Part shown: one piece after another, positions 50,374 to 51,253 of the stretch | Layout of the letters: every line of letters begins with the position of its first letter | Position numbering within the stretch: position 1 is the stretch's first letter | Assembly: GCA_031082125.1 (NCBI GenBank) | Contig: JAVHLM010000002.1 | Span: forward strand, 62,001-126,000 | Source: Candidatus Eremiobacterota bacterium | GTDB lineage: Bacteria > Vulcanimicrobiota > CADAWZ01 > Ess09-12 | DNA: 64,000 nt | Direction: 5' to 3' | Notes under the pieces: generated by a model | The model's input: only the letters and a program-made list of their open reading frames with translations | Database searches by the model: none | Told to the model about the DNA's origin: nothing | Program-made: the position numbers and the translations under genes

Positions 50374-50691
50374 ATGGCGCGAGGAGACAACTTTATCAAC
50401 AACCTGGAGCGGACATCCTCGGAGAATTTTTTCAAGCTGGAAGAGCGGGTCAAGGCCGATCTCTGGGAGCGGGCCATGGAAGGCGACACAAGGGCTATCG
50501 ATACCCTTCTGAAGTTTATCGAGGTGGGCATGAAGGTCGTGGAGCTGTCCCACTACAGGAACAACCTCTCCGCCATCGCCGAGCGCCTGGAGGGAAGGGA
50601 GCAGATAGGTGAGCTTTTCCTTATCCTGGACAGGATTGCCACGTCGCTCGACCATATTGAGAAGAAACTCGGCGGTACCGATTCCTTTTAG
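50374..50691 (+). CDS. Small helical protein of unknown function (105 aa)
   Basis: A 105-aa all-helical, charged protein (NNLERTSSENFFKLEERVK, AMEGDTRAIDTLLKFIEVGM, FLILDRIATSLDHIEKKL). No family is recognised; the mid-part resembles small adaptor proteins with HTH- or TPR-like helix pairs. There is no signal peptide. ATG 50374 has GGAG close upstream. The candidate selenoprotein gene follows 91 bases later in the same direction, perhaps on the same transcript. Confidence 0.7.
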   Translation: MARGDNFINNLERTSSENFFKLEERVKADLWERAMEGDTRAIDTLLKFIEVGMKVVELSHYRNNLSAIAERLEGREQIGELFLILDRIATSLDHIEKKLGGTDSF

Positions 50692-50782
50692 CACGGCATC
50701 CCGGGAGGGTGCACCGGGCTGGTTGCCCCCCCATTTTATAGCCGCCGCCGTGGAGCGCGCTGCATGACAGGGAGGTGCATCA

Positions 50783-51253
50783 ATGGCTTTGACTGAAGGT
50801 ATGGAGGCTCCGGATTTCACTCTCAAGGATACCGGTGGCAGGGAGATCTCCCTCTCTCACTATAAGGGCTCAACACCTGTGGCCCTCGTGTTTAACAGGG
50901 GGTTCATATGACCTTTCTGCCGCCGCCATATGACGCAGTTGCGCCATGAGTATGAAAAGTTCAGGGCCCTTGGCGCCGAGGTGATAGCCATCGGTCCCGA
51001 GGACCCCGGGGAGTTCAGGAGGTACTGGGATCGCGAGGCGATGCCTTTCCCCGGTCTTTCCGACGCCGATCACAAGGTGGCCGATCTTTACGGGCAGGAG
51101 GTGCGCCTGCTGGCCCTGGGACGCCTCCCCGCGCTCTTCGTCATTGATAAGGAAGGAGTGGTCCGCTTTGCCCACAGGGGGCGCTCCATGGCCGACATCC
51201 CCTCCACCGGGAAGGTGCTGGAAATTCTTGGCGCTCTGACGAAGCCTTCATGA
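50783..51253 (+). CDS. Peroxiredoxin-like (AhpC/TSA) protein with in-frame TGA, candidate selenoprotein
   Basis: One continuous frame of 156 residues interrupted only by TGA at 50909-50911 (codon 43). Before it comes a standard redoxin start (ALTEGMEAPDFTLKDTGG, then PVALVFNRGFI). After it come PFCRRHMTQLRHEY, AEVIAIGPEDPGEF and LPALFVIDKEGVVRFAH. In this family the position is the catalytic Cys of RGxxCPFC, so reading TGA as Sec gives U-P-F-C (U43, C46). A hairpin suited to be a bSECIS lies 17-37 bases after the TGA. ATG 50783 follows GGGAGGTG. Predicted role: thiol peroxidase or disulfide reductase. A recent nonsense mutation is the alternative, but both halves look fully conserved. Confidence 0.8.
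50929..50948 (+). promoter_or_regulatory. Candidate bacterial SECIS hairpin
   Basis: Pairs 50929-50936 with 50941-50948: T-G wobble, A-T, T-A, G-C, an A/C mismatch, C-G, G-C and C-G, around the tetraloop AGTT. The G sits second in the loop, 27 bases after the TGA. Loop G near the apex and this distance fit the general bSECIS pattern. Confidence 0.55.

Follow-up and report, generated by a model that had tools for sequence, protein, structure and literature searches.

Within the window, as the whole 64,000-nucleotide stretch of DNA analysed here is called, the frame of a peroxiredoxin-like gene is broken by a TGA codon at 50909, which raises the question whether this codon marks a damaged gene, the end of one short protein ahead of another, or a site at which selenocysteine (Sec) is inserted, as an earlier note on this DNA had proposed. 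The window belongs to a draft genome of 7.43 Mb in 69 contigs that is 97.6% complete. In all likelihood the gene product is a peroxiredoxin-like thiol:disulfide oxidoreductase with selenocysteine in a UxxC active site, UGA-43 being read as Sec; the support lies in sequence, namely in the machinery genes, the UGA column and a hairpin, and the fold is a predicted one.

Table 1. Features of the selenoprotein locus (positions in the window).
Feature	Position	Strand	Evidence
Selenoprotein gene (predicted), 156-residue AhpC/TSA (peroxiredoxin-fold) protein	50783..51253	+	Read-through ORF, PF00578, orthologues, AlphaFold model
Shine-Dalgarno-like GGGAGG	50770..50775	+	7 nt 5' of the ATG; read from the sequence
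TGA codon probably read as selenocysteine, residue 43, UxxC position 1	50909..50911	+	Aligns with TGA in 30 orthologues and with TGC in L099 and L057
TGC codon of Cys46, UxxC position 2	50918..50920	+	Invariant C46 in alignment A2; corresponds to the Cys/Sec of TxxC/TxxU relatives
Putative bacterial SECIS (SelB-binding hairpin), UAUG-A-CGC / AGUU / GCG-C-CAUG	50929..50948	+	Comparative; leave-one-out covariance model

The reading frame itself is as the earlier note had described it. It opens with the ATG at 50783 behind a good ribosome site, has the TGA as its codon 43 and sole internal stop, and ends at an in-frame TGA at 51251-51253, so that 42 residues precede the internal codon and 113 come after it. 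The sequence was said to be intact and family-like on both sides, and this is borne out by the PF00578 match of the read-through protein, which runs across the TGA from residue 6 to 129 (3.5e-29, 101.7 bits, cut-off 26), and by codon usage, which favours the gene frame on either side of the TGA (0.20 bits per codon ahead of it and 0.38 past it, versus -0.39 and -0.61 in shifted frames). The active-site motif reads N-R-G-F-I-U43-P-F-C46. Upstream of the gene, at 50374-50691, lies a 105-aa ORF with no Pfam match.

A standard ORF list puts the gene start at 50930, as had been foreseen, and on such a call the locus would be split between an N-terminal peptide of 42 residues and a separate protein of 107 aa from that ATG. 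There is indeed an ATG with an open frame from 50930 to 51253, and the annotation of the Thermomicrobium roseum orthologue has the 42-residue piece alone, but the PF00578 match extends over both pieces, and the ATG at 50930 falls inside the hairpin. The AlphaFold model of the window protein (pLDDT 91.6) has a peroxiredoxin fold, matching most closely Bcp4 and AhpE (3hjp and 4x0x, TM-scores 0.90 and 0.89), and in it strand 33-37, residue 43 just before the helix, and helix 44-62 form a single active-site unit. According to the model neither piece contains the whole fold, and a start at Met50 would cut helix 44-62 and lose both active-site residues, which makes a pair of separate proteins exceedingly improbable.

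The TGA also recurs among relatives. In the genome's own phylum a search of 149 genomes found no close orthologue; identity to the best relatives is only about 35%, although many of these have one TGA, and every internal TGA in these relatives aligns to column 43 (UxxC) or to column 46 (TxxU, the true peroxidatic position), the others being terminal stops. G029 and G078, both drafts that contain UGA homologues, gave no tRNA-Sec in a coarser scan. Closer relatives are found elsewhere. A plasmid of T. roseum (NC_011961.1; L194:1492-1962) encodes a 43% identical protein with TGA at column 43, and Leptolinea sp. HRD-7 (48% identical) and Chthonomonas (46%) have Cys there. Among 400 genomes of the phylum of Leptolinea, Chloroflexota, there were 51 matches down to an E-value of 1.5e-31, and 49 of these 51 best matches (41-57% identical) carry a TGA. 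Its position was checked residue by residue for 29 Chloroflexota loci and T. roseum, and in all 30 column 43 is TGA and column 46 is Cys; a TGA column shared by 30 aligned Sec orthologues is therefore not due to chance. The TGA column, which the earlier note had marked for comparison with homologues, is thus occupied by Sec or Cys.

These data also bear on the possibility that the gene is an ordinary Cys gene with a nonsense mutation, or with a TGC, TGT or TGG misread in sequencing or assembly. A single base separates TGA from each of these codons, and the genome is a draft of many contigs, but of the roughly fifty orthologues, which come from independent genomes, nearly every one carries one TGA, and in the 30 that were aligned, T. 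roseum among them, it occupies the same column, which makes the misreading considered in the earlier note untenable. Frame and codon bias stay intact past the TGA, the genome has the full Sec machinery, and the TTG codon at the hairpin loop is constrained (both described below), so that a pseudogene or sequence error is to be regarded as extremely unlikely.

In a tree of the family the window gene falls within a largely Sec-containing group, beside L198 and L201 with weak support (85/76), and the two Cys forms sit inside this group on separate branches. This suggests that Sec has been lost to Cys at least twice, which is tentative because both branches are long. Leptolinea has a tRNA-Sec and retains, beside its Cys copy of the gene, one with TGA; the Chthonomonas genome has no tRNA-Sec over the cut-off. 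No relatives were found in viral contigs, which is why an origin from a phage or virus was discarded.

If the UGA is to be read as Sec in a bacterium, a SelB-binding hairpin is expected just downstream of it, and a candidate begins 18 nt past the UGA, with its AGUU loop at 50937-50940, 25 nt past the UGA. The stem of the window gene has 3 and 4 bp around one A-C mismatch, a position at which relatives have a G-C, G-U or A-U pair, and in several orthologues it is continuous (7 bp in T. roseum, 8 in L195 and L197). The hairpin that the earlier note had mentioned in its proposed check does exist and has comparative support, but its folding energy taken alone does not set it apart from shuffled sequence (z +0.67, percentile 0.51 within its own gene), and energy was dropped as stand-alone evidence. 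Also covariation was dropped as an argument: there is some compensation among the variable outer pairs (G-C to A-U in L200, G-C to C-G in L205), and in alignment A1 just three pairs change on both sides, a value reached by 61 of 500 shuffles, which is suggestive and not significant. As the covariation is too slight, the case relies on the loop, the codon that encodes it and the contrast with the Cys forms. The hairpin stands at +25 in all 22 Sec genes of the first clade, with the loop AGUU (AUUU in L209), and is degraded in both Cys genes, which lack the clade-1 form. For the Leu at the loop, every one of these 22 Sec genes uses TTG, a codon that makes up 1.4% of the 570 Leu codons in ten ORFs of the window, and it is constrained because the AGUU loop requires it.

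Scoring with a covariance model, as had been recommended, points in the same direction. A model trained on the other 21 genes, with the window gene excluded, gives the window site 50.6 bits, versus 26.1 and 21.4 bits for the Cys forms and 16.9 for the next best site in the genome, a gap that in part reflects protein similarity. Four other matches of the model in the same genome (16.2-16.9 bits) were read and rejected, there being no redox-like coding frame across a TGA. Separately, L227 and L228, which lie on contig 5 some 10 kb from each other (28065 and 37818), have identical flanking translations and represent a repeated stretch. In the same-phylum family, bSECIS-like hairpins are commoner behind UGAs than behind the remaining codons of these genes (rank test p 3e-9, uncorrected for kinship). 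In a second Sec clade (L210, L215-L220, L223 and L224) the hairpin is another one, placed at +16/17, 8-9 nt nearer to the UGA, with the loop (A/C)GUU, AGCU in one gene, and a different GCGCGC stem.

For bacterial SECIS elements, rules have been given by which the loop has 3-9 nt with a G in the first two positions, the spacing from the UGA is 16-37 nt and there is a stable upper stem with 4-16 bp (PMC13188914). Like the bSECISearch consensus (PMC13188914), the window element lies directly past the UGA and has a loop of 4 nt, a G at position 2 followed by U, and a spacing of 25 nt; unlike it, its stem of seven pairs is broken by one A-C mismatch. By comparison it is convincing that the element at 50929-50948 would serve as a bacterial SECIS.

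The genome has what such an element would need. The earlier note had named selA, selB, selC and selD as the genes to look for, and all four are present: the tRNA-Sec with its UCA anticodon lies on contig 6 (70 bits, cut-off 47) directly upstream of selB (383 bits), selA scores 557 bits, and selD (385 bits) has an in-frame TGA of its own at the usual Sec position (...HAAGUASK...). One might still suppose that some ordinary tRNA whose anticodon is UCA, or an altered code, makes this UGA a codon for Cys or Trp with no selenium involved, as some relatives have Cys in column 43 and any amino acid at UGA would leave the frame open. UGA is an ordinary stop in this genome too, however, because 9 of the 15 clear genes of the window end in TGA; among the tRNA genes whose anticodon was read, which are part of the genome's set, tRNA-Cys has GCA, tRNA-Trp has CCA, and UCA occurs in tRNA-Sec only; and decoding of this kind has no need for a hairpin past the UGA. 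Reassignment of UGA throughout the genome is unlikely, and a selenium-free reading of this one codon is very unlikely.

The same genome has further UGA-containing genes. A thioredoxin-like protein (L022:1501-1896) contains WRYGUPEC, and a 2-Cys-peroxiredoxin-like protein (L024:1501-1896) contains FTFVUPTE, with Sec at the peroxidatic position by its motif and at column 43 by pairwise alignment; the AGUU hairpin of L024 has one 1x1 mismatch of the same kind as that of the window gene. The hairpins of the genome's UGA genes differ: the window gene and L024 have an AGUU loop, L022 has UGGA, and selD has a GGC-type loop. There are also two full-length SelB-like factors that are 34% identical (L017:6361-8259 and L018:2842-4800, both on the minus strand), the former adjoining the tRNA-Sec and the latter away from it, by an arginase/agmatinase-like ORF. 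It is conceivable, though rather doubtful, that each of the two SelBs serves another SECIS class; if true, such a division of labour is not described in the literature that was searched.

On these grounds, synthesis of the protein would proceed by the usual bacterial route, in which selenophosphate comes from SelD, the serine carried by tRNA-Sec is turned into Sec by SelA, and the Sec-tRNA reaches the ribosome with SelB, itself attached to the AGUU-loop hairpin just 3' of the UGA. Sec is presumably inserted there at UGA-43, and translation would continue to the TGA at 51251. The earlier note had placed Sec at the catalytic Cys, and this holds insofar as residue 43 is the first Cys of a thioredoxin-type CxxC, but it is not the peroxidatic Cys, the column of which is C46. 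The window protein is without the classical P-x-x-x-(T/S)-x-x-(C/U) motif and has R39-x-x-x-U43-x-x-C46 in its place; going by the alignment, Sec43 stands for the Thr of peroxiredoxins and for the first Cys of the thioredoxin CxxC, and C46 for the peroxidatic column of peroxiredoxins. As judged from the motif, the most likely chemistry is a cycle in which Sec43 would be the attacking selenolate and form a selenenylsulphide with Cys46, which thioredoxin would reduce again; the substrate may be a peroxide or a protein disulfide.

Peroxiredoxin-like selenoproteins of the UxxC type were reported in 2005 (PMC1088965) and are found in current catalogues (PMC13188914, PMC9312934). The window protein shares with them (PMC1088965, PMC9312934, PMC13188914) PF00578, UxxC in place of TxxC/TxxU, a predicted UGA-encoded Sec and Cys homologues; the published entries, with WP_010940744.1 as their reference sequence, describe the family broadly, and the likeness is drawn from these descriptions. 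What marks the family is found together here, that is PF00578, UGA at CxxC position 1 with UGA or Cys in homologues, and selA, selB, selC and selD, and the window gene is a real additional member of this already known group. Its subfamily has the signature R-[GSA]-x-x-U-P-[FYH]-C ... G-R-[LMIV]-P ... D-I-[PS] and is, within the searches made here, most abundant in Chloroflexota. SelL proper has UxxU. To the SelL-related AhpC-TSA_2 proteins there is likeness in a PF13911 match above the cut-off (32.3 vs 27) and in NF040769 as the best NCBIfam match, but with 82.6 bits the latter is below its curated cut-off of 120, and the window protein has one predicted Sec (UxxC). True peroxiredoxins such as BCP/PrxQ and AhpE have the same fold and their peroxidatic Cys in the column of C46, but the window protein lacks P-x-x-x-T-x-x-C, with R39 for the Pro and U43 for the Thr.

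The titles and abstracts returned from an open-access library did not mention this subfamily for either Chloroflexota or T. roseum, and in its lineages it is easily missed: the T. roseum record annotates the orthologue only as a 42-residue hypothetical protein, WP_012643006.1, that ends at the TGA codon. The gene points to a subfamily whose members usually have selenocysteine, Cys being apparently secondary. Its compact putative SECIS, with the AGUU loop and the fixed TTG codon, can be tested by mutation and may be used to find selenoproteins in Chloroflexota and in the phylum of the window genome.
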